Shown here piece by piece: positions 4,361-49,868 of a DNA stretch of 64,000 bases (the first letter of the stretch is position 1; each line of letters starts with the position of its first letter). Source of the stretch: Niebla homalea (lineage: Eukaryota > Ascomycota > Lecanoromycetes > Lecanorales > Ramalinaceae); the NCBI GenBank assembly GCA_019925105.1, contig JAHGAU010000003.1, positions 1,550,001-1,614,000 on the forward strand, written 5' to 3'. The position numbers and the translations under genes were made by a program. The notes below the pieces were generated by a model. It did no database searches. It was not told the origin of the DNA and saw only the letters and a list, made by a program, of their open reading frames with translations.

Positions 4361-5461
4361 ATGGCCCCTACTGGAAAACGTCTGATCCAGCTGCACCACC
4401 AGAATCCTCCTCACCTACCGGGGTGTGGGAGCGACAGGCAGACGATCTATGGGAGCTGGACGATGGGACTAGGCCGGACACTCATGGGCCCCTACCGGAA
4501 AACGTCTCATCCAGTAGAGGATGGGCCTGGGCCGGACGCTCAAGGTGCGTATTCTTTCACTACCCACGCCGAAGCTCTGACATCTTAATAGAGACCCTCG
4601 CTGTTCACTTTACAGCAATGCAAGCCCGCGGAAGCCGGCATGGGCTTTTTTCAAGAGTTCCGACAACTCAAGACCGACAGTTCTCGGTCTGGCGGAGATG
4701 CCTTCCACGCCCACTTCACCTCGACAGGTGCTCCCCAGGGCAAAAGTCCAGCAGCACAGCGTTTGTGGGCAACCTCAGCTCGGGTTCTGGGATAGATAAC
4801 AAAATTTGGGCATAATCAATGGAGTGTAAACTCTCTTCTGAGCACCCGAACATCGTCAGGATCCGATGCTGAGACCCTATGAGATTGCATCCGCTGTGGA
4901 AAACCAAAGGAACACGGATCAACTCCAGTGGGCAACGACTTCAACATGATCCCACCGGGTCACCTTTGAGGACCACCCATCTTACGAGGCTGCTCCAGCC
5001 GCCAAGCAGCATGCGACGGAAGAGTCCGAGGGCGTTGGCGCTGCTTCGGATACCATTGGTAAGTCATCCAACGACAGAGTCAGGGCAACCTAGGCCTCTC
5101 GCCCAGATACGCGGATCTCTGGAAGAAGGTGCGCCAGATGAACGCGATTTTCGAGCCAACTTGGGTCTGGTTTTTGGGTGGTCAATATCCCTCCGACCTG
5201 CTCCTCCAGCATGCTGGCAACGCCCTCACCACACGCGTGACTACCCATTACCCCGATCTTCTCCATGCCTGGCTGATGGCCAAAGGTGCCAGGGCATACG
5301 GCGCCCTCCATGCCCAGGGCATCGAATGGGAAGACTTCCACAGTACGATCGCTCCCATTCTCTGCAGCTATGAAATTCCCACTGCGAGGCAAATACCAAT
5401 GCCATGCCGTAACGCGGGCTTGGATTGTCTCAACTGGAAGGTCGTCATGGGGCATGGGTGA
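4361..5461 (+). pseudogene. Eroded spliced gene of unknown function
   Basis: I do not recognise this protein. Several stretches look coding. An ATG at 4361 opens a short exon reading MAPTGKRLIQ, and a near copy of that segment recurs about 120 bp on in another frame. A 47-nt intron is likely (4545-4591: GTGCGT donor, CTGAC branch site, TAATAG acceptor). A Cys-x2-Cys segment (DCIRCGKPKEHG) lies near 4883. A 35-nt intron (5059-5093, GTAAGT..TAG) joins the segment ending AASDTI in phase to LSPRYADLWKKV and on to a stop at 5461. The last exon has long hydrophobic/aromatic runs such as PTWVWFLGGQYPSDLL. The upstream pieces do not connect without frameshifts or stops, so I call it a remnant. The intron phases are what suggest it was once a real gene. 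Confidence 0.45.
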
Positions 5462-28439: not shown

Positions 28440-28825
28440 TGACCAAGACGACCAGCTCCGCAGTCGCTCCAATGTCCTTTCTGCAGCTCCTTTTCGACCG
28501 AGGCAATCCTTGCGTATCGCTCTCCGCACAAATTTGCCAGAGGACAGATCTGATCGAGCATCTGTTGCTTGTGGGACCTGAGTTCATTGACTGCTTCCAG
28601 AGCGCTCCCCTCGGATGTAGTAGTTCCTGCGAAGACCTTTGGAGCTAAGCTCGAGTGCTTGGCTTATGATCATGATTTAATAGAGTTAATATACAATTGG
28701 TATCTCCACTCGGTGCGGAAGCGCGCAAAGTCGTTGTTGACAGCTAGATTGTCAACTGTGTGTTGCAGAGACTGGCGGATGGCCGAGAAGAATTCGTCTT
28801 TTGAAACTCCAGAACACGATTGGTC
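28440..28825 (-). pseudogene. Fragment of a repeated coiled-coil/zinc-finger family (copy 1)
   Basis: Minus-strand frame reading DQSCSGVSKDEFFSAIRQ, then HTVDNLAVNNDFARFRTEW, ending at a TGA at 28670. A second block in another frame (ALEAVNELRSHKQQMLDQI) follows. DNA of the first block matches the 39.5-kb gene over about 28 bp with few differences (GACCAATCGTGTTCTGGAG here, GACTAATCATGTCCTGGAG there), and HTVDN matches HTVEN. The segment near 28640-28665 (GCTCGAGTGCTTGGCT) also recurs at 38470. So this is a decayed relative of the 38.4-39.6-kb gene. Function unknown. Confidence 0.5.
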
Positions 28826-28899
28826 TTTTTCTGGACCATTGAGTTTTTGTAGCGCACCCTATCAACCTTTTCGGAACAGGGTGGGTCTACCTCCTTACT

Positions 28900-29850: not shown

Positions 29851-30009
29851 CTCGCTGAACGTATCGCTTCCAACACACCGCACAAAATGTGCCTTGGCTT
29901 CGCTCGCGCGCGCCGAGCCAAACCAGAACCCTTGACGATGTCCATAACAAAGCTCGACAGCTTGCTTAACCCTTCCCGCCAAATCCGTCAGGGCCTTGAT
30001 GGCGACGGG

Positions 30010-31590: not shown

Positions 31591-34500
31591 TCGCAGCTTG
31601 CACTTGCAAGGAACTCGCGAGAATCCCTTCCCAGTTCTTCTCAAACACCAGGACCACACTCACGAGTTTCCAGCTCCCACCCAACCGTATTTGGATTGGG
31701 ACGCCATCTCAGAATATAACCATGGCCCGAATGATAACCCCTAATATATTTCCCAAGCTCTTGAATTATCTCACATTCCAGCACAGAAGGCAAGTCGAGC
31801 ATGCTGGTGAAGACAGGATAAGCACACTCTTCGAAAGTGCAGTAGTTGTCATTGGGGACAAGTAGCCACCACCTTCTTCTCCACCCAGACCACAAGGGTT
31901 CCTTCCTCCTCCCCCATCTTGCAATTTCTCTTCTTCCCCCAGAACCCTTCGTCATCCTTCCCGATGAGATTTATGTGCTTTTCGCGAAGACACTTGTCCT
32001 TCGATCTTAGAAGACGAACCCAGGCAGGCCTTTGACTCGAATGGGACGAGTTGGACTTCGAATAAAATTGGCCCTCATGCCATAAGCATCCTCGAATATC
32101 ACTGCTGGATTCACACTCCACCGCACGTGGGTAAAAGCTACCTACCGCAGTATATAGGCTGGGGGGTAGAAGGTGGCCTCCCATTCTGCATACCAAGCCC
32201 GTCAGCAGCAAGAACGTCAGAGATGGGTGGCAATCTACTGTTCGTCTGAGCGGCTGGGGTGTGCTGAATTTGGGACATATGAGAGAGTTCGAGCTTTGGT
32301 TTGCAATGTGCCGAGTCAAGCTGTGGCCTTGGCTGTTCAATTTGGTCTTCCTTCTGGCTACTCTTTCTCGAGAAGTTTCGCTGTGCGAACTTTGATTTGC
32401 TGGGCGCTACCATCACTCGTTTGAGCAATTGAGTCGTAGGTTCCACACATTTTTAACGCTCTATGTACCACGACGGAGATCAGCTCATGAATCTGCCTGA
32501 AGAGAGATAATTTGAGTGGACAGGATGACTCGGGGGTGTGGGTGCCTCACTTACTAGCACTTGTGTTATTCTGCCACGGTGGTAGACGTCCAGACGAGTC
32601 GATTAGTGGCTGGATAAGTTTGGCAACTGGTGTGCTCCTCGTCACCGAGTCTAGTATGCTGATCGGCTGAATGACTCTTTGGTTGATGAATTATTGATCT
32701 GATGGTGGGATAAGGAAGGGGCGCTTTGCAGGCCACCACTTTTTCCTTACGCAAGGTGTCTTCGCTCGACCTCCAATACGTTATTTGCTATACTCCTTCT
32801 TTGGGGTTGGTCTGGGTCAATCCAATTATTGCGGAGGAACTGTTCGTTCCATCTCGGCAATTGAATATGACGGCTTCGGCATCTGCGAGTATCTTCAGAC
32901 TTCCTGCAAATATCGTCCGTAGTCGGATGTCCGTTGATGATGGGAGTCCTGAGACAAGCTGGGCAGCTGTCAGAGAGCGACATGTTTGGAAAGAGTCCTC
33001 AAGCGGACGAAATGCTCTTGGTTGTGGCCAAAGACCCCTCTCAAGGAACACCATGGAGCAGGGCTTTCCAAGTCCAAGAGGTACATCTAATTCTCACTTA
33101 CGGCCAGTGATCAACGACGTGTGGCGTTTAAAGTCAAGCTCTGAGTTTTTGATATCAGCTTGTAGACCCTCGAGGAGATTGATATGGAATGATCGCGTGC
33201 TGTCTCGAGAACGTCACAGCTTGTGGAGAATTCTGAGCGAGAGTCAAGGCTGCTGGAATTGGCCTGTCTCAACAAGCAAGATGTGACTGCGAATATTGTA
33301 GAGGCTCCTCGGCAGAAAACCCAATAGGGGAGTTCAGGACGAAGTGAGAAGGAAGGAGTCCTTTGGGTTTGAGTCTTTCGGTACACTGTCGATTGGAGCT
33401 CAAATCCTGCTTCTTTCGCTGCTCGTTTTTTTCATCCATGAATAGTAAAACCCATCAACCTTTTGAACAATCATGGAAGAGAGGTAAGGAGTTTGTGGGT
33501 TTTGATGAGTGGAGGTCGGAGGCTCGAGTTGAGTATGGGTACCCCGAGAGGTCTGACACAAATTATCAACAAAGTGTGTTCATTCAGTGAGTGTTCTGCT
33601 CTGTTCTGCTCACTGTTAATGATCCTAGTGTTCAGACGATGACAGCTGACAAGGTGTAATAACACGTCTGGCAAGCATAGTCGGCAAAGATGCTGGCCCC
33701 TAGCTCCAATAAGAGTGGAGGTGTGTCTTGATACCTGTGGGTGGGTTGTACCACTACCAGAATATCTGCTTGTCAGAATGGCCCTCTGTCTTTGCTGCTG
33801 AGATTGGCCTTTTGAACTTGGTTGCAGATGAGTGGTAGCTCAAGGCTGCAAAAGTCCTTGAATATGGTCAGCAAGAATCTTCCAACCGGTAAGTGTCATG
33901 CTCACCATCCATGATTGAAGTTTTCCTGACAATCTCCTCGTCCAAGACGCGACAGTACATCTGCAGCAGGTTACTCAGATGTACAAAAAGACAACAAAGC
34001 TGTCCTTTTGTGCCTCGACAATGAACTGGTTGAAGGCAAAAACATACTGTTCTCAACACCGAACGGCCCAAGCACTTCTCGTTCGGACCCTCCTTGGACA
34101 AGTGACCCACTATCCAAGTCAGCACCATTTGAACACTCCTCAGATAAATGAAGAGATACTTTCACTACATTTGCGGTGTTCGACCGTGGAGACGCCTCGT
34201 GGGTTTGGGCATTCGTTGCCACATTGTCCAGTCCCTCTTGCGAGCTACACGTCAACAGCAGATTCCCTTCAGCAGAGAATAAGCTAGACTCACTCGCAGT
34301 TGGGACGAGGACACATAGACATAGCAGCCTTGTCAAGAGGCTCGGGAAAGAGTGGGCATGAAAATCTCAGACAGCAGGGGCGGATGTTTGGACCGAGACG
34401 AGCTAACACATTGTACCTACCACTAAAAATAGCCCGTTACCGCCAGCAAACGCGTGACACATGACCAGGACTAAATTGGCCAATCATCTGCAAGGCATTG

Positions 34501-35052: not shown

Positions 35053-36110
35053 GGTGAGCGGGAGGCTCTTGTAGCCGTTGTTGCGTGATTGTGTATGCTT
35101 ATGTGATTGGATAGGAGAGGAGGCGTGCCGGGGGAGCGTCAAGGGGGCGCGGTTTGTGAGGATGGGGTGGCTTGTGGCTGTGCTGGTAGGCGTGGTAGAC
35201 CCTTGGGTGGGATTTGCTTGGCTAACGGGAGGCAGTGACGAGGAGGGACGGGGAGGCGTTTCTGTGCTCGCGCGGGTAGTGGGGATGATGGTATAAGGGG
35301 ATGACTTGTGGGGGGGATGACGGCGTTTTCAGTGGTAGATAGATCAATTGCAATGAATGAATTCATGGCTCTGAGATGATGCATCATTGCTTTGAACTAT
35401 ATACTATGCATTCTGTCCATTTGCTATATATGTATGCGGAGACCAGTCAGTGAATGTCTTGAGACGCCTCCATGAGATTCCGTGGCGTTTCTTGGGATCC
35501 AAGAAAGCATGGATTTGCTTTCATGCTCAGTTCCTCGAACGATGGTAGCATAGAAACGGGGTACATTGCGAGAGGAGCTTTTGCTGCTGAGCTACACGTT
35601 GAGAGTGCGGCAACACCAAATGATGTTTCCAGAGTAGGAAATTCACTTGACTGCTTAGTATACTTTCGAAAGACACCTGACTCTGCGGGCCCCTCGAAGT
35701 TCACTTCAATGCCGGGTATATTTGTGAGGGAGGTCTGACTCTCCGGGACCCCAAAGAGGTCGGACAACGTGAGCACGAGCTCGAGCTTCGTGATCCAATA
35801 CCTATGGGGGTTTTTTTTCCACTGCCGAAAAGAATCTTGCCATAGATTCCCTGGTTGATAGGACGAAGGTTCTGTTAGAAAAGAGCATCCAGGATGCTTC
35901 GTCATAAACCTCTTTTGTTGACTCGCAAAAGGTCCATGAGTAAGCTATCCTGCTCCTAAATAGGGCATATTTATTTAAAATTTTGCTCATTCTTTGATCA
36001 GAGTCGAATTTCGATCAAAGCTAGCAGAGGATTTATAGAAAGTGCGATTCACCCATTATCGGTATGTTGACTGACATTCTACGCCTTGTTGCGCAGAAAG
36101 ACATTTCGGA
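35053..36110. other. Intergenic region
   Basis: Opposing frames around 35447-35905 are short and motif-free. A TTTATTTAAAATTTTG AT-rich patch lies near 35975. Nothing supportable. Confidence 0.5.
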
Positions 36111-36590
36111 GTTGTATGACCGTTCATGAGGGCGAAGGTTGTCCATTAAGCACTCTGGCCATATCGGTGTTGTCTGACCGTTCATGAGGGCGAAGCCTGT
36201 TCATTCAGCACTCTGGCCATATCGGCGTTGTCTGACCGTTCATGAGAGCGAAGGTTGTCCATTAAGCACTCTGGCCATATCGGTGTTGTCTGACCGTTCA
36301 TGAGGGCGAAGCCTGTTCATTCAGCACTCTGGCCATATCGGCGTTGTCTGACCGTTCATGAGAGCGAAGGTTGTCCATTAAGCACTCTGGCCATATCGGC
36401 GCTGTCTGACCGTTCATGAGAGCGAAGGTTGTCCATTAAGCACTCTGGCCATATCGGGATTGTCTGACCGTTCATGATGGCGAAGATCATGATTCACCAA
36501 GCACTCTGGCCCTTTCACGAGGGAAAAGATTGCGATTGACGAAGCACTCTGGCCCGTTCACGAGGGAGAAGATCGTGATTATTGGGAGTA
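36111..36590. repeat. 58-bp satellite with alternating A and B units
   Basis: Seven regular 58-bp units, anchored by TCTGACCGTTCATGA at 36174, 36232, 36290, 36348, 36406 and 36464, plus one worn unit before and two shorter ones after (to about 36580). The core is GCACTCTGGCCATATCGG. Two unit types differ in the middle (A: GAAGGTTGTCCATTAAGC; B: GAAGCCTGTTCATTCAGC). The order is A B A B A A, i.e. partly a 116-bp higher-order repeat. There are no spacers, so it is not CRISPR-like. It ends about 170 bp from the stop codon of the repeat-peptide precursor. Confidence 0.92.
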
Positions 36591-36763
36591 GCAACTGATG
36601 TATTTGATGGCAATTGGCCGACCTCATCAAGCTCCAAGATATCTTCAAGCTCTTGATGCTGTTCAATAGTACCATTGTAGGTAGGCAAGTGCCCACCCAT
36701 CTGCATTAAGGCAATATCGTGTGATTGTATATCTCCTGTATTTAAGAGCGAAGATGATGGTGG

Positions 36764-37306
36764 TCAGATGACAAGGTACCGAGCATTGTCCGAAGCTGTA
36801 ATTGTTATAGTGTCGACTCGATCATCAGACTCATTCTGAGAGCGAAATTCTGAATGATTCCAATGCTCACACTGTCCACAATTGAGACAAACCTCACGCT
36901 TGGCGACGTAGGCGGTGCCAGTGGCATATGCGGCAGCCACAGGATCCGGTCGCGGCTCGGGGATGGGGTACGGTGCCGGGTTAACCTTACGCTTGGCGAC
37001 GTAGGCGGTGCCAGTGGCATATGCGGTAACCACAGGATCCGGTCGCGGCTTGGGGATGGGATACGGTGCCGGGTTAACCTTACGCTTAACGACGTAAGCG
37101 GTGCCAGTAGCATATATAGTAGCCACAGGATCCGGTCGCGGCTCGGGGATAGGGTACGGTGCCGGGTTGGCCTCACGCTTGGCGACGTAGGCGGTGCCAG
37201 TGGCATATGCGGAAGCCACAGGATCCGGTCGCGGCTCGGGGAGGGGGTACGGCGCCGGGTTGGGCTGGCAAGAATGTGAAGGTGTATTCTTGGGATGGCA
37301 GCACAA
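36764..37306 (-). CDS. Kex2-type repeat-peptide precursor (KEP/RiPP-like), 5' end not found
   Basis: Frame of about 180 codons with four copies of a 31-residue unit (93-bp DNA period: 36902, 36995, 37088, 37181). Each unit is NPAPYP-I/L-P-E/K-PRPDPV, three variable residues, then YATGTAYV-A/V-KR. Lys-Arg plus a dipeptide (EA, KV or EV) separates units, as in precursors cut by Kex2 and trimmed by a dipeptidyl peptidase (yeast alpha-factor, dikaritins such as UstA and PhomA). After the last KR comes a different tail with CLNCGQC (CxxCxxC) and an acidic/Thr-rich end. The frame has no ATG and no signal peptide. A TTGCCAG acceptor just before the first unit (about 37261) suggests an upstream exon, or truncation: an F-box-like remnant lies there on the other strand. 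No UstYa-like partner seen nearby. Export and processing are inferred. Confidence 0.6.
   Translation of the reverse strand: MCCHPKNTPSHSCQPNPAPYPLPEPRPDPVASAYATGTAYVAKREANPAPYPIPEPRPDPVATIYATGTAYVVKRKVNPAPYPIPKPRPDPVVTAYATGTAYVAKRKVNPAPYPIPEPRPDPVAAAYATGTAYVAKREVCLNCGQCEHWNHSEFRSQNESDDRVDTITITASDNARYLVI
36902..37260. repeat. 93-bp coding tandem repeat, four units
   Basis: Four in-frame 93-bp units within the precursor gene, differing mostly at third positions and at a few variable residues. Exact length conservation with no frame break indicates selection on the reading frame or recent expansion. Confidence 0.92.
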
Positions 37307-37395
37307 AGGTGAGCCGGTTGAGAATTACATCATATACCTCTCATCGGACTTAATGGTCTACCAGTAGCCAATTACTCAATATTGCTCATGGCGGC

Positions 37396-37900
37396 TTGAA
37401 GGTGGTCGAGGAAGAAAGCGCCTATCGACCGCCGTCCGACATTCTGTGGGAGTGTGGTATATCATCTTCTCGCCCAAGCTTGTCGTTCTCTCCTCGCGTG
37501 AGGAGGAAATTACCTGCCCTCCGTGAAGCACATGCAGTAGATATTGGCCCTGATGTTTCGGGGGATGTCGAGAGAATCTTCGTCGTTCTGCTATTGTTAT
37601 GCCCAGAAATACATATTGTGACTTTTCAACCGATTGATTGGTTTCAGGACTGCTCTCACCCAGTGCTTTCACGATCTTCAGCCTGTCAACGCTCGCCTCG
37701 AGGTCTTTGGGTGCGTCGAGCGAGTCCACGTCCTCGGTGGCATTCATCTTGATGGTGCGGAAACCCTGATCCTGTCTTCGAGCTGGATTGCCAGTGGCAG
37801 TCGAAGATCACTGCGCTCAGGCCTTCCACGGGACTCAATCTTACCAAAGGGGTAAACCCTGCTAATGACAAGACACTCCTTGTACACCAATTCTCGGATT
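37396..37900 (+). pseudogene. Remnant of a leucine-rich F-box-type protein
   Basis: Two plus-strand frames that would join with one frameshift near 37640. The first reads VDIGPDVSGDVERIFVVL, then CPEIHIVTFQPIDWFQ. The second reads CFHDLQPVNARLEVFGCVE and GAETLILSSSWIASG. Leu-rich, with the look of the C-terminal half of fungal F-box/LRR-like proteins. No start or F-box is left. It lies next to, and opposite to, the precursor gene, and may have replaced that gene's first exon. Confidence 0.4.
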
Positions 37901-38391
37901 TCCTGCGGCAATTTCAAGAAGCTCCGCTTCCTTGCCGACGATTCTTGAGGTTGAAGATCATTGGTGCCGTTGGAGCTCGGGTTGCGAACCGCCTCTGAAA
38001 TTGAGTGAAATCAGAGGAATCGGCTCTGCACTTGGTTGCAAAACCAATCCACCCCAGCTAGACTACCACTCACCTCTACGGAAGCGGCAATCCAGCTGGG
38101 AGGTTAGCTGTGAGCTTGATTTCCTCATTCGTACACAAAGTTAACAAGGTCCGTGTACTCAGCCGAGTACAGGAATTCGAGTAAGCACATGACAGATTGC
38201 CGGAGCAGAACAGTGGCGAGTGGCAATCTTGTGTCCTTCTTCGTCCCAAACGAGGCTTTGGAGCAGTCTTCAGCGCCGCGCTCGTGTTGGATTTTGCGAT
38301 GGCGATCAGCACTGGCTATTGCAAGTTAACCATGCCCCGGTCAAGCTTTAAAAACGGCCAAATCGTTCACATAACCCACCTCTTGCTTTAA

Positions 38392-39624
38392 TTATAGCTG
38401 GTGGACTCGAAGATGATCATTGGCGCAAAAGAGTTTGTGGCTCTCGCGGAGACCTTCGGCGCCAAGCTCGAGTGCTTGGCTCATGATGATCTCGTTATCC
38501 AGACGTGGCTGCAGGTTCGTTGACTGCTTCCAAAGCGTTTCAGTGGCTCTCACGGGGATCTTCAGCGCCAAAGGATAACCATGACTTTTGATCAAACCAC
38601 CATTGACTTCATCGGAAAGGCCAAGCACAGGCAATGATTGTATTCCGTGATTTTCACGGATAGTAGTATCGGTCTTCATCGTTGTAGTACTGGCTGTACT
38701 TTGATGATCTTGTCGGTACCCGGCGTGCGCCGGATGACCCAGGAGTGACTGTTTAGCAGGTGGAGCTCCGCTTGCTGCTGGGCCTGAGTCCATAGATGTG
38801 GAGTTACAGCATGTTTGCATGTCATATGTGGCAGTGGGAAGAAAACCCATGGTAGTGGCATGCATTTGGTTTCCACGGCGTTCCGGCTGCGAGAAAACCC
38901 TTTCCATGGCCATGTGCGAGGAGTATTCCAAACTTTGGAAACCATCAATCCCGTTATAGATAGCATTTGTTCTATCTGTACTGACTTCATGACCATACCT
39001 GGGATCATAGTCCTGAGTAAAGGGATCCAGCTTATGCGTATAATTCCTGATCGATCCATGCCTACGAGTATCCTTGGCCTTGGTAACAGCCTTGAATTTT
39101 GCCATGACTGTTGATGCAGATGTTGTAGGAATAGCCAAATGAAGAGAGATCCCCTTGGAAGGCGAGTTCCAGATGTAGCCCCAGGTGTTTATCTTGTGGT
39201 TGTTCTTGTGATCGAGACTTTGCTGCAGGTCCTGTGTCAGGTCACGCTCCTCACCAAGGAGGTTCAAGAGCTGCTGAATTTTCTCTTGGGCCATTGTGAA
39301 GTGAGCTGTCCCGGAGGACAGATACCTTGACTTGACCGAGTCCGCGTAGCGTTGACGATTTCGCTCAATACGGACGCGAGCGAAATTCTCCACAGTATGG
39401 CGCAGCAGGGTATCGGAAGCCGCAAGGTCTGACTGTAAGAATGTGTCCAAGCAGAACGGGCAGTGTAAGAGCCAGCCACTTGCAACGCTTGGTGTGAAGT
39501 TTGGTGGACAGGACCCTTTGAGAACTCCAGGACATGATTAGTCTGCTCGAGACCCGTTGAAGAACCATTGCCATGCCTGGTCCGTCACGTTTCCAGTCCA
39601 AGTGTCTCCTTCCACCGCATACAA
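38392..39624 (-). pseudogene. Zinc-finger/coiled-coil family gene with one TAA (copy 2)
   Basis: One minus-strand frame stays open from 39624 to 38392 except for TAA at 39538-39540. It reads GDTWTGNVTDQAWQWFFNG, SRAD, stop, SCPGVLKGSCPPNF, then CPFCLDTFLQSDLAASDTLL-RH, a single Cys-x2-Cys..His pattern, then helices (HTVENFARVRIERNRQRYAD; EKIQQLLNLLGEERDLTQDL) and a long low-motif tail ending LRVHQL. The related fragment at 28.8 kb has CAA at the stop position (DQSCSG), so CAA-to-TAA is the likely event. No ATG is seen at the 5' end; a first exon probably lies toward promoter-like module C at 39718. Function unknown. C-terminal DNA (GCTCGAGTGCTTGGCT) is also shared with copy 1. Confidence 0.5.
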
Positions 39625-39717
39625 CTATCGATCGACAGGTCGTTCTACTGCCGACCGCCAGGTTGAAAAATGCCTGAATATTTATTTAGATAAGAAATGC
39701 TGAGACAAAATAAAGAA

Positions 39718-39860
39718 ATAGTTTAAGGACATCGCGGTCCGTCAGTCTTGGGGGCTGCTGAATCGATCTTCTGCAATGAATTGCCACAAAGTGCTGGGGG
39801 AAGTCATGTTATTCGTTCGTGTATTGACATACTATGGCTCTATATAAGTATGTGTATGGG
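39718..39860 (-). promoter_or_regulatory. Promoter-like module, copy C
   Basis: Minus-strand order: ACTTATATAGAGCCATAG, about 120 nt, then GACCGCGATGTCCTTAAACT. It shares both boxes with copies A and B but has a longer, unrelated middle. It lies about 95 bp upstream of the open frame at 39624. Confidence 0.5.
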
Positions 39861-41150
39861 CATCAGATTTTGTGGTGGTGGAATCGAATGCAATAATGCG
39901 GAAAATCCAGGAAGCAACCTGGCCACGCTGAGAGTATGTTGTACGCCTCTGTGGCGAAGTCTGTCTTGCTCTGGCCTCCCTCATCTGGAGAGGTCCAGCT
40001 ACTTATGAATGCCTCAACCATTACTCGGCGGCTCATTTGTTGGCCCTTGTGAGAGAGGAGAGCGTCCTCTGAATCCAGTATCATGGTCAGCCATCCCGGT
40101 TGACAATTTAAGAGATACACACTAGGTATTGTCAGTATCCTGTTGAAAGATAGAAAGGCGAAAGCGCGCAGGACAATTTTCAATCAAACGAGAAGCAAGA
40201 AAAAAAGGTGTAGACGTCGTTGAGGTGAAGCTTGTTGTGCTCCGATGCTGGTGGATCGAGGATCAGCCCGTTTCAAAACATGAGACAGCATAAAGAGCAT
40301 CTCACACAGTTTATCAGCTCTCTCTAGCTTCTGGTGAGTCGGGAATGTCTGCTTCATTCCCAAGTTCCAACGAATGACTTACTGCCACGGTTTTCAACGG
40401 CTAAATCGCGAGCATGCTCTCACATCAGTTCCATGAAGAGCTGCTCTTCGATTACATGAATGTATTATTGTTCTTTTCAGGACAGCATTCGAGTTCCATG
40501 CGCTGCCATCCAACGATAGTATGTCTTGCGTACACAAATTGTCGTTGAACCAGCTTCATAGGAAGGTCACAAGGGCTCATTTTGTTCGCCGGTAAGGATG
40601 TAGAAGGCGAGATCTTACCTGAAACAGTGAACATAAAATCAAGAGCGATGGCAAAGCACCTTCATTCAAGCTTGTCGGCTGGCCGCTATGAGCTTGAAGG
40701 TAGAAGCACTGCCGCTCTTTGCGAGGAACCAGTATAGTAAGACTGGTTGCAGCCAGCAACCCAGCTGTCTTGATTTAGCGCAAGTGAGTGGTAGACTTCC
40801 TGTCCTACCAGTTCTGGTAGTCGTCGCCGGAGATGGAAGGGCCTCTGTGGATCGCAGCAGCTTGCCTGTACTGTGAATACTTCGATGTCTCTTATGCCTC
40901 GCCCACAACACAATCTGTTCGTCACGAGCCGCTAAGAGACGGTGAGCATGAGGTTCATTGCCGTAATCTGAGGCGAAGTCGGTACTGCGTCAAGAATAAA
41001 GACGGAAAGGCAGGAGAGAGGTTCTGTGTTTGTAGAGGGATGACGATCTGGATATGGGGACACTACTTTAAGAAATGAGTGATCAGCTCCGGCAATCATA
41101 GGTGGGGATTTCATGTACTTATATTAGAGGGTATAGAGCGAGACTGGGTG
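39861..41150. other. Gene-poor region
   Basis: Short opposing frames only, for example 40666-40925 (-) and 40833-41078 (+). No motif, start context or intron pattern. Confidence 0.5.
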
Positions 41151-47450: not shown

Positions 47451-49208
47451 TCGCTGGAGTAATGGGTGCCAATACCCCCTTGGTCCAACGGTGTGTATAT
47501 GGTATTCTTTTCATCCAGGTGCCACCTCTCACAATTCTCCCTTGTCATCGAGCATGCGCCTCCCTAACTAGAATGGCCAGCATGAGCAGTTTCAGCCAGA
47601 CTGGAGTACTTCTTGCCTAGCAGGCACTCACCACGCGCTGAGGCCGACGCGTTCGGTGTCTGCCGTTATACAAGCGGCTCAAGGCTACTTGAGCCTTGAA
47701 TGAACAGATCTTCTGTGCTAGATAGGGAAACTCAGGAAGAATGATCATCAACACTGCTCCCTGTCAGTACTCTGATTTGGAGGAGAGGTGGCCATGGACG
47801 GTGAAGAAAATGCATGCGAGAAAGCTGCACCTTCTTGTTCCTTTGCAAAGGATATCATGAGGCAAATGCGCACGGGGGCTCTTCCGTCGATGCAATGTGG
47901 ATGCTAATGGGTTCGTGGCTCTGGACAGGGAATTTGCTCCGGACGTGCAGAACATTTGGAAACGACATTTTTGGCAGTGTGACAGCACGGGAGTCTTCAT
48001 TCCGGAGGCATTGCTCTGTAAGTGTTATGACTGCTCCTGGACCCGCGGAATTCCCTCGCCTGGCACTGCATTTTCTCATGGGATGACGAGAAGCAACGCG
48101 TTCAACAGGCTCAAAAGTAGAATTAAATGAGATCCAAGTAATTTGTACGTCAATGGCAGTCAAGGAAGCCCTTTTGCATCCTAATCTGTGGCTTGACTAC
48201 CTAACACTGTCCACCTTCTTGATAAAGGGGCTTCTATCCCCAAACTAGAACTCGACCAACGCCCGTACAGACTCTGAAGGTAGATTACTTACCGCCAGAT
48301 GAATGTAATAAGGAAGTGGAAGGCATCATACAGGACTTTTCTGAAGTTGTAAATGAGAGCCACAACTGCCCAATTGCCACCCATGGGATCCAGACCTCTC
48401 AGCTCCGCCCCTGATCTCGAGAATTATGTCAGCCGAAAACGGCCGCTTTTACTTCTCCCATCTGTAAATCCTCTTAGGTGATAGTGTGAACCTTGCGATA
48501 CTTTCTTGAGGCTAAGGCGGCCCTGGTTGCCTGGCAAGAAATATCCAGATTCAGAGGATGTGTCCAGATTCAGCCATTGCACCCTTGAGTCGCTTACTCC
48601 TGGCCAATTAGATCCGATGTTCGTACACCTTTTAGTCTCATATACTTGCCGGCTTCCGCATTCACGTCACACTCATGTTTTTTCCGTCGGGTTCCATCCT
48701 GCCACTTGCCAACATAAAAGAGCGTCTTGCTCCTCGAAAATTTCAGCAGTCCTCCTCTCTCTCTACCCTCGCTCTAAGTCAATCATCCAATTATACACTC
48801 AACCCAACCTCCGTCAGCCATCCTACTCTCTGTCTATCCTCTCTCGACATCAATATTTCGATCACACACTCAATCCAACCTTATTCACCTCCCCACAATC
48901 CCCTCCGCCGCAGCCAACATCTTTCTATTGGTGTTCAAGTCCCTTTCCCAACTTCAATACGGCTTTTTTTAGCCCTTTGGGATAGCAATTGGCAGCAGCC
49001 AAGACGGTAATTCTCACCATTCTTCTCCCCAAGCCTCTTTTCTATGAAGGTTTCAAAGCTCATTTACTTCATAGACGCTGCCTCAGTCATCAACAGATCT
49101 GTTTAGGTGAGGTGGGGCCTCGCCGGTCCCTAGCGGGCACGTGGACCTAGTTGGCCACAGAGGTGCGGTGGGATTCCATTGCAGGAATATGTGTGTGCGC
49201 TCTGGGGT
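47451..49208. other. Gene-poor region with an orphan pyrimidine-rich stretch
   Basis: 48680-48970 is strongly C/T-rich (CTCTCTCTACCCTCGC, CTATCCTCTCTCGAC), as in fungal leaders, but no ATG frame of quality follows. It may be an abandoned promoter. Confidence 0.45.
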
Positions 49209-49436
49209 TGTGAGAGATTCAGTTGAAAGGGTAGTCATTATACCACGCCGTTTGTTGCTCTCGACGAAGTTTGCTTCACTCGGCTGGTTGGTCGCCTACT
49301 GTTCCCAGCTCCAAAGTCTGCCGCAGAGTGCGGAGAAGGTGCAGTGGGCCACCCACCAGCCGGGTGAAGCCAACTTCCTCGAGAGCAATGAACGGTGTGG
49401 TATAATGACTATTCTTTCAACTGAATCTCTCGCCAC
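49209..49436. repeat. 228-bp imperfect inverted repeat (hairpin)
   Basis: The left arm, about 49210-49297, begins GAGAGATTCAGTTGAAAG. The right arm, about 49345-49436, ends CTTTCAACTGAATCTCTC. Over about 88 bp the arms pair with roughly a dozen mismatches, mostly G/A or T/C. Matching blocks include AGTCATTATACCAC, TTGCTCTCGA and GGCTGGT. The loop of about 50 bp has its own small stem (CCGC..GCGG). This could be a foldback MITE, an inverted duplication or a hairpin RNA source. No flanking target duplication was identified. Confidence 0.85.
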
Positions 49437-49868
49437 CTCCCCCTGGAATTTGAAGTCCGTTGGGGCTCTTCCGGCTCAAGTTTAAACACGGGGATGATTC
49501 TTGACACCATGGAGCTAGAGGACACTCAACTCCTCCCAAGCACCATATACCGTCTCAAGCCTGAAACGGTTCCATACCCATCAGAAGGTGTCAATTATCT
49601 TTTCCAACCATCGTGAGCTATTTGATCCTACTTTTACACGTATCCAGATTGTCTAACGTCTTACTAGAGTTCTGCAAGATCTGTGTCCGAATTGGGTGAG
49701 ACTTACAGGGTCTTTCTTCTTTTGATAGCTTGTGGGGTACAAAGGAAGGGTGCCAACCCACCGACGTCTGCGTCTGTTGCAGACAAATCTGGTAAGGTCC
49801 AAGTGTAGCTTCTTTTTGCCAAAACGCTTACCGTTGCTAGTCACGTCGGATTTCACTGCACAGAGGTC

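Follow-up and report, generated by a model that had tools for sequence, protein, structure and literature searches.

The window analysed here comprises 64,000 nucleotides of the genome of the lichen-forming fungus Niebla homalea (C3:1550001-1614000; assembly of 50.6 Mb in 52 contigs, numbered with C) and contains on its minus strand a tandem repeat that encodes part of a Kex2-processed repeat protein (KEP). We suggest that this window copy is very probably a dead, non-functional fragment of a KEP gene, and that another gene on the same contig, 132 kb away and referred to below as the parent, is the intact-looking precursor. The two features that define the copy are as follows.

36764-37324, minus strand: stop-to-stop frame of 186 residues, consisting of the KEP fragment and a foreign tail (open reading frame (ORF) listing).
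36892-37263, minus strand: KEP fragment of 372 bp with four 93-bp units, a partial duplicate of the precursor gene C3:1718870-1720080 (86.8% DNA identity to L005:4366-4734, within that locus).

Tandem Repeats Finder places the array at 36890-37261 with a period of 93 bp, 4.0 copies, 89% matches and a score of 611, and the four units lie inside the 186-residue frame. Their consensus is NPAPYP(I/L)P(E/K)PRPDPV..YATGTAYV(A/V)KR. The original prediction described four near-identical units, each closed by Lys-Arg (KR) and followed by a dipeptide, and the repeat finder together with the frame translation confirms this: all four units end in KR, and the next dipeptides are EA, KV, KV and EV, the last of which straddles the junction with foreign sequence. 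The CxxCxxC motif noted beyond the last KR is also present. With regard to the proposed Kex2/dipeptidase-type precursor, the kind of sequence was recognised correctly, while a gene at this locus was not borne out, as the frame holds a 372-bp fragment with neither signal peptide nor pro-region and with no start codon ahead of the repeats. The window copy shares KR-separated repeats with KEPs but lacks their signal peptide.

When the window ORF is used as the query in a protein search of its own genome, it finds itself, two overlapping matches at C3:1719274-1719870 (best E value 2.4e-56) and a tail-only match at C1:2793718-2793822 (1.8e-14). The window repeat is not a chance product, because a gene elsewhere on its contig carries it too. 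Similarity to the parent is confined to 36892-37263, i.e. the four units, at 87% DNA identity over 372 bp. The gene model of the parent, predicted from sequence, comprises exon 1 of 53 bp, a GT-AG intron of 101 bp and exon 2 of 1,057 bp, and gives a protein of 369 residues. Its N-terminus, MRSSCTLFAALSVLGFIS, is hydrophobic and signal-peptide-like in a hydropathy scan, and a short pro-region leads to the first KR at residues 53-54. It is followed by six KR-closed units (one of 45, four of 31 and one of 30 residues) and by 116 further residues. Thus, the parent has what defines KEPs in PMC6339444 and PMC7329392: the N-terminus of a secreted-type precursor, with secretion predicted by hydropathy only, and near-identical repeats with KR between them. 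The C-terminus of the parent (L005:3871-5081) after the last RR reads GEGEMGLFKPGVNVG.

After seven of the eight KRs of the parent, only dipeptides ending in Ala or Pro occur until the core is reached; the runs of such X-Ala/X-Pro dipeptides count 18, 11, 11, 11, 11, 11, 36 and 0 (109 in total). With shuffled residues the full dipeptide series is recovered in 0 of 200,000 trials for unit 1, 21 of 200,000 for unit 2 and 0 of 200,000 for the tail. After the four KRs of the window copy the runs are 9, 0, 0 and 0.

The surroundings of the window copy are those of a relic. Segment 35695-39366 of the minus strand forms a mosaic to which seven contigs contribute nine donor stretches; some of these are nested, all are in sense orientation, and the fragments measure 57-421 bp. 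Apart from the KEP fragment, its members, all on the minus strand, are as follows; percentages are identities to the donors.

35695-35965, minus strand: fragment related to C16:986338-986606, 89% (DNA match).
36582-36886, minus strand: fragment of an apparent gene, C1:2793721-2794025, 305 bp, 93%, which supplies the CxxCxxC tail (DNA match; no Pfam family in the C1 frame).
37268-37563, minus strand: decayed gene fragment, 72% to L054:5790-6084 on C16, ending four bases from the KEP fragment (its protein alignment contains five in-frame stops).
37619-37768, minus strand: fragment of a mandelate racemase/enolase-type gene, C6:1611727-1611878, 97% (DNA match and Pfam).
37773-37982, minus strand: gene fragment C16:981596-981805, 87%, weakly 2EXR/DUF7730-like (Pfam, below curated cut-offs).
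38515-38571, minus strand: second C17 piece, 77%, beyond the C14/C13 insertion (DNA match).
38567-39208, minus strand: fragment of an apparent gene, C14:440134-440623, 89% (80% in its 65-bp second part), split by the C13 piece (DNA match).
38631-38784, minus strand: fragment of an apparent gene, C13:1297718-1297871, 93%, nested in the C14 fragment (no target-site duplication seen).
39201-39366, minus strand: fragment related to a tandem-CCCH zinc-finger/DUF7923 gene, C17:179085-179250, 83% (DNA match and Pfam).

The intact paralogue family of L054:5790-6084 is, like the gene at C16:981596-981805, weakly 2EXR/DUF7730-like below the Pfam cut-offs. The KEP fragment thus has a stop-containing relic four bases upstream and C1 gene sequence five bases downstream. 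The CxxCxxC tail comes from the piece of an unrelated C1 gene; the first bases of this piece fall between CTAAC and ACAG of the C1 locus, read here as an intron end. By this reading of ours, the tail would partly be intron sequence of the C1 gene.

The C13 piece separates two bases that are neighbours in the C14 donor. The C14 piece in turn separates two pieces of the C17-like gene, with 21 donor bases missing; no target duplication is found at either of these two insertions. The identity of the longer pieces rises inward (83, 89, 93%), as expected for successive insertions, with 77 and 80% for the shorter second pieces. The remaining junctions show gaps of 3 to 5 bases or overlaps of 1 to 8 bases, and one gap of 55 bases. 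Hence, we suggest that templated (filler) insertion during double-strand-break repair is most likely the origin of the mosaic. An internal piece of the KEP gene of about 0.4 kb would have landed in a decaying gene region beside the C1, C6, C13, C14, C16 and C17 pieces and would then have drifted and partly re-duplicated in place. Units 2 and 3 of the window share the window-only changes GAG to AAG and Ala to Thr, which suggests such a local re-duplication after the insertion. A point against this mechanism is its basis, namely two nested junctions that lack a target duplication, together with the short gaps or overlaps elsewhere.

The mosaic resembles both templated insertions and Helitron capture in that short fragments of distant genes are joined end to end and the two nested insertions carry no target duplication, and it is unlike both in that nine donor stretches within 3.7 kb are all sense. 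Their position on a single strand, all in sense orientation, would speak for a gene-capturing transposon (Helitron or Pack-type) as the builder of the mosaic. If the nine were independent, this would have a chance of about 1 in 256 (two-sided), a figure to be taken as a guide only, since some of them may share one older host gene. Pfam gave the sense of the C17 and C6 donors, and weak Pfam or paralogue matches gave that of two C16 genes; for the KEP the gene model was used, and for C1, C13, C14 and the third C16 stretch the longest frame. We regard a transposon as the less likely origin: of the 25 pairs of inverted repeats in 33-42 kb, none is convincing as a terminal repeat (Helitron ends were not searched for), and the best of them, 23 nt at 83%, lies inside the mosaic, although one pair does flank it (34590/41028, 27 nt, 70%). 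In addition, the differing identities of the nested pieces suggest stepwise accretion, and a 10-kb genome search, which skips very common words, finds no multicopy flanks.

Several further observations concern the same segment and the rest of the window. An open frame of 381 residues (38392-39537, minus strand) runs through the C17, C14 and C13 pieces, and on either side of the nested insertions its sequence matches the frames of C17 and C14; it has no Pfam match and is possibly a chimeric new gene or a coincidence. Near the C1 fragment there is a 58-bp tandem array (36102-36485, 6.6 copies, 90% matches), and a stretch of about 233 bp at 49206-49437 forms a long palindrome, with 81-82% identity between the stretch and its reverse complement. 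Short partial matches are also seen in other 10-kb parts of the window, with 31 in 23-33 kb (many to one short repeat family) and 14 in 43-53 kb. Further short matches to the C17 locus occur at 28479-28603 and 28705-28831, and to one C38 locus at 4948-5065, 29874-29912, 31869-31956 and 39953-40060; these may be more signs of fragment accretion. Rfam gives no matches in the window at gathering thresholds. Repeat-induced point mutation was considered and is not clearly seen: C>T or G>A changes from donor to window number 83 against 58 T>C or A>G, and 28 of the 83 lie in CpA/TpG (nine fragment pairs, with C14 taken as two and the 72% C16 fragment left out).

For the parent, we propose the following course of events. 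The precursor would enter the secretory pathway via its signal peptide, and Kex2 would cleave after each KR. A Ste13-type dipeptidyl aminopeptidase would then remove the X-Ala/X-Pro series, two residues per step, and Kex1 would trim the KR, so that six copies of a short Tyr peptide are released, predicted as TGTAYVA (TGTAYV from one unit). If trimming ends one dipeptide earlier, the product would be YATGTAYVA. Most likely the parent functions in the manner of the alpha-pheromone precursors of ascomycetes; its processing, product and role are inferred. PMC6339444 describes KR with repeated XA/XP dipeptides as the signature of Kex2, Kex1 and Ste13, assigns it in Ascomycota generally to alpha-type pheromones, and reports signature-bearing KEPs whose role is unknown in Basidiomycota and Rhizophagus. 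The parent is set apart from the other KEPs of Ascomycota by a signature that, according to the same paper, is generally found in pheromones only. Two facts weigh against this processing. The eighth KR of the parent has no X-Ala/X-Pro series after it. The dipeptidyl aminopeptidase Ste13 belongs to the DPPIV_N family, and the two loci of this family in the genome (PF00930) do not alone show Ste13, since bacteria and archaea have PF00930 as well (5 of 14 control genomes).

With alpha-type pheromone precursors (Ppg1, PpgA, Ccg-4) the parent shares the signal-like N-terminus, the short pro-region, the KR-closed tandem units, the dipeptide series after seven of eight KRs and the lack of a UstYa match nearby. 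It is unlike them in three respects: the series is long (22 of the 30-31 residues in five units and 72 residues in the tail), no homologue was found, and the core TGTAYVA contains none of the motifs WC..GQ.C (WCxxxGQxC), C..PGQ.C (CxxPGQxC) and PYG[LM]P[IV]G. The prediction that the core does not resemble known alpha-pheromone motifs is therefore borne out. The GVxVG end of the parent is loosely like the PYG[LM]P[IV]G terminus that PMC6339444 gives for the pheromones of Pleosporales, and this may be chance.

The receptor side is present. The genome encodes Ste2 (C24:353289-354172; PF02116, E value 2.4e-84). Its best match overall stands at 94%, and the best among named proteins are those of Psora crenata (71%), Psora testacea (69%) and Bacidia gigantensis (64%), which point to a lichen-forming Lecanoromycete as the most likely source. 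As DNA patterns searched genome-wide, WCx3-4GQxC has 15 matches against 4 in the reversed control, CxxPGQxC has 11 against 5, and PYG[LM]P[IV]G-KR has none. None of 14 loci with the two-Cys motifs is a repeat precursor, although other motifs or intron-split cores would be missed; the 14 comprise all in-frame, stop-free WCx3-4GQxC and CxxPGQxC matches and one stop-bearing C6 match, with the remaining out-of-frame or stop-containing matches left out. If the parent were a pheromone with a novel core, this would account for a genome in which Ste2 is present and the described core motifs were found in no precursor. The missing canonical precursor has a precedent in Endocarpon, another lichen fungus, which according to PMC3897900 has lost the alpha-like precursor, though there the receptor is reported to be gone too. 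We consider the lack of the three motifs weak evidence for a pheromone, and the core is unlike that of any described one. The parent is a new KEP with the Ste13 signature and possibly an unrecognised pheromone. Only tentatively do we put forward that it encodes the alpha-type pheromone for mating, or a sister peptide with a signalling role, whose core (TGTAYVA or YATGTAYVA) lacks cysteine and whose Ste13 series is very long.

The search for homologous KEP genes called for by the original prediction gave nothing outside this genome: at E <= 1 there is no hit for the window ORF or the spliced parent (7992 and 7996 scored candidates), and words rich in Pro and Ala may have crowded the lists. Pfam gives the KEP only matches below the cut-offs. 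A description of the repeat was not found: YATG and TAYV are absent from the main texts of PMC6339444 and PMC7329392, and TAYV from that of the lichen RiPP (ribosomally synthesised and post-translationally modified peptide) survey PMC12048977. A literature search on lichen mating pheromones yielded little.

The dikaritin precursors UstA, PhomA and AsuA carry repeated Tyr-containing cores between KR sites. The parent is like them in this respect, and the original prediction had named a UstA- or PhomA-like RiPP as an option. The parent could then be a dikaritin-like precursor, its YATGTAY core being cyclised by a UstYa-type oxidase whose gene lies in another part of the genome. The two Tyr residues in the repeated core fit this, as do the 33 six-frame matches to UstYa (PF11807) in the genome, which are exon pieces and not genes. 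PMC12048977 also reports two clans of RiPP clusters in Parmeliaceae with no repeated precursor inside the clusters, and explains this by a precursor that may lie outside the cluster or have a single core; the parent could likewise act from a distance. However, position lends no support: only 2 of the 33 matches are on C3 (429,469-429,630 and 1,011,006-1,011,758), at least 575 kb from the window copy, and the nearest ends 707 kb from the parent. PMC7329392 places a UstYa-type gene near 22.3% of 7,878 KEPs, while such a neighbour is lacking for 100% of the 227 KEPs of yeast alpha-factor type and for 98.6% of the 216 of fungal-pheromone type. The parent also differs from the dikaritin precursors in having the Ste13 series, while ustiloxin/phomopsin-type precursors are not predicted Ste13 substrates according to PMC6339444. 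We therefore hold a dikaritin-like role to be improbable. Some of the UstYa matches in the genome are closely grouped, on C12, C14, C24, C29 and C35.

The view of the window copy as a relic agrees with its own sequence. A hydropathy scan of 37264-40500 (minus strand), in which splicing of the window copy was not modelled, reveals no plausible signal-peptide start upstream of the repeats; it yields three ATGs (one alternative-frame stretch of the C14 fragment, 2.02 against a cut-off of 2.0), while the same scan over 3 kb before the repeats of the parent yields exon 1 (2.39) and one other ATG. Thus, as far as scanning the sequence can tell, the upstream signal-peptide exon whose absence was to count against the original prediction is lacking from the window copy, and it is found in the parent. 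Changes in the window units that are absent from every parent unit are 11 nonsynonymous and 0 synonymous, against 2 and 6 for changes limited to a single parent unit (Fisher p = 0.001); an equal singleton definition on both sides gives 7/0 for the window and 2/6 for the parent (p = 0.007). This count omits columns 92-93 and, in parent unit 1, the diverged first 24 columns. Some points weigh against a relic. The substitution counts are few, the units are not independent owing to duplication or conversion, and two of the changes are in one codon. The frame is open across all four units, and the first of them, with no KR ahead, still has a dipeptide series. The pooled ratio of nonsynonymous to synonymous rates (dN/dS) between the fragment and one parent span is 0.19, a value that includes changes made in the parent array. 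Over seven fragments dN/dS varies between 0.19 and 2.30, the comparisons with C14, C13 and C1 each containing one stop, and it is not a main argument for the relic.

That the window copy works, as a chimeric precursor that has an upstream exon of its own or as a second gene yielding variant peptides, is very improbable: the open frame, the dN/dS of 0.19 and an acceptor-like 'ttcttgccag' ahead of the first unit speak for it, and against it stand the stop-containing relic upstream, the missing signal-peptide start, window-only changes that are 100% nonsynonymous, post-KR dipeptides KV, KV and EV in three of four cases, and a tail that is another gene's fragment and by our reading of the C1 locus partly intronic.

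Last but not least, the claim shifts from a dead fragment to an intact-looking parent gene. In the mosaic that surrounds the fragment, the stepwise accretion of gene fragments in a fungal genome can be read. In the parent, a lichen-forming fungus has an intact-looking precursor with the Ste13 signature and a core unlike those described, and if it does encode a pheromone, this would provide a testable peptide for lichen mating.
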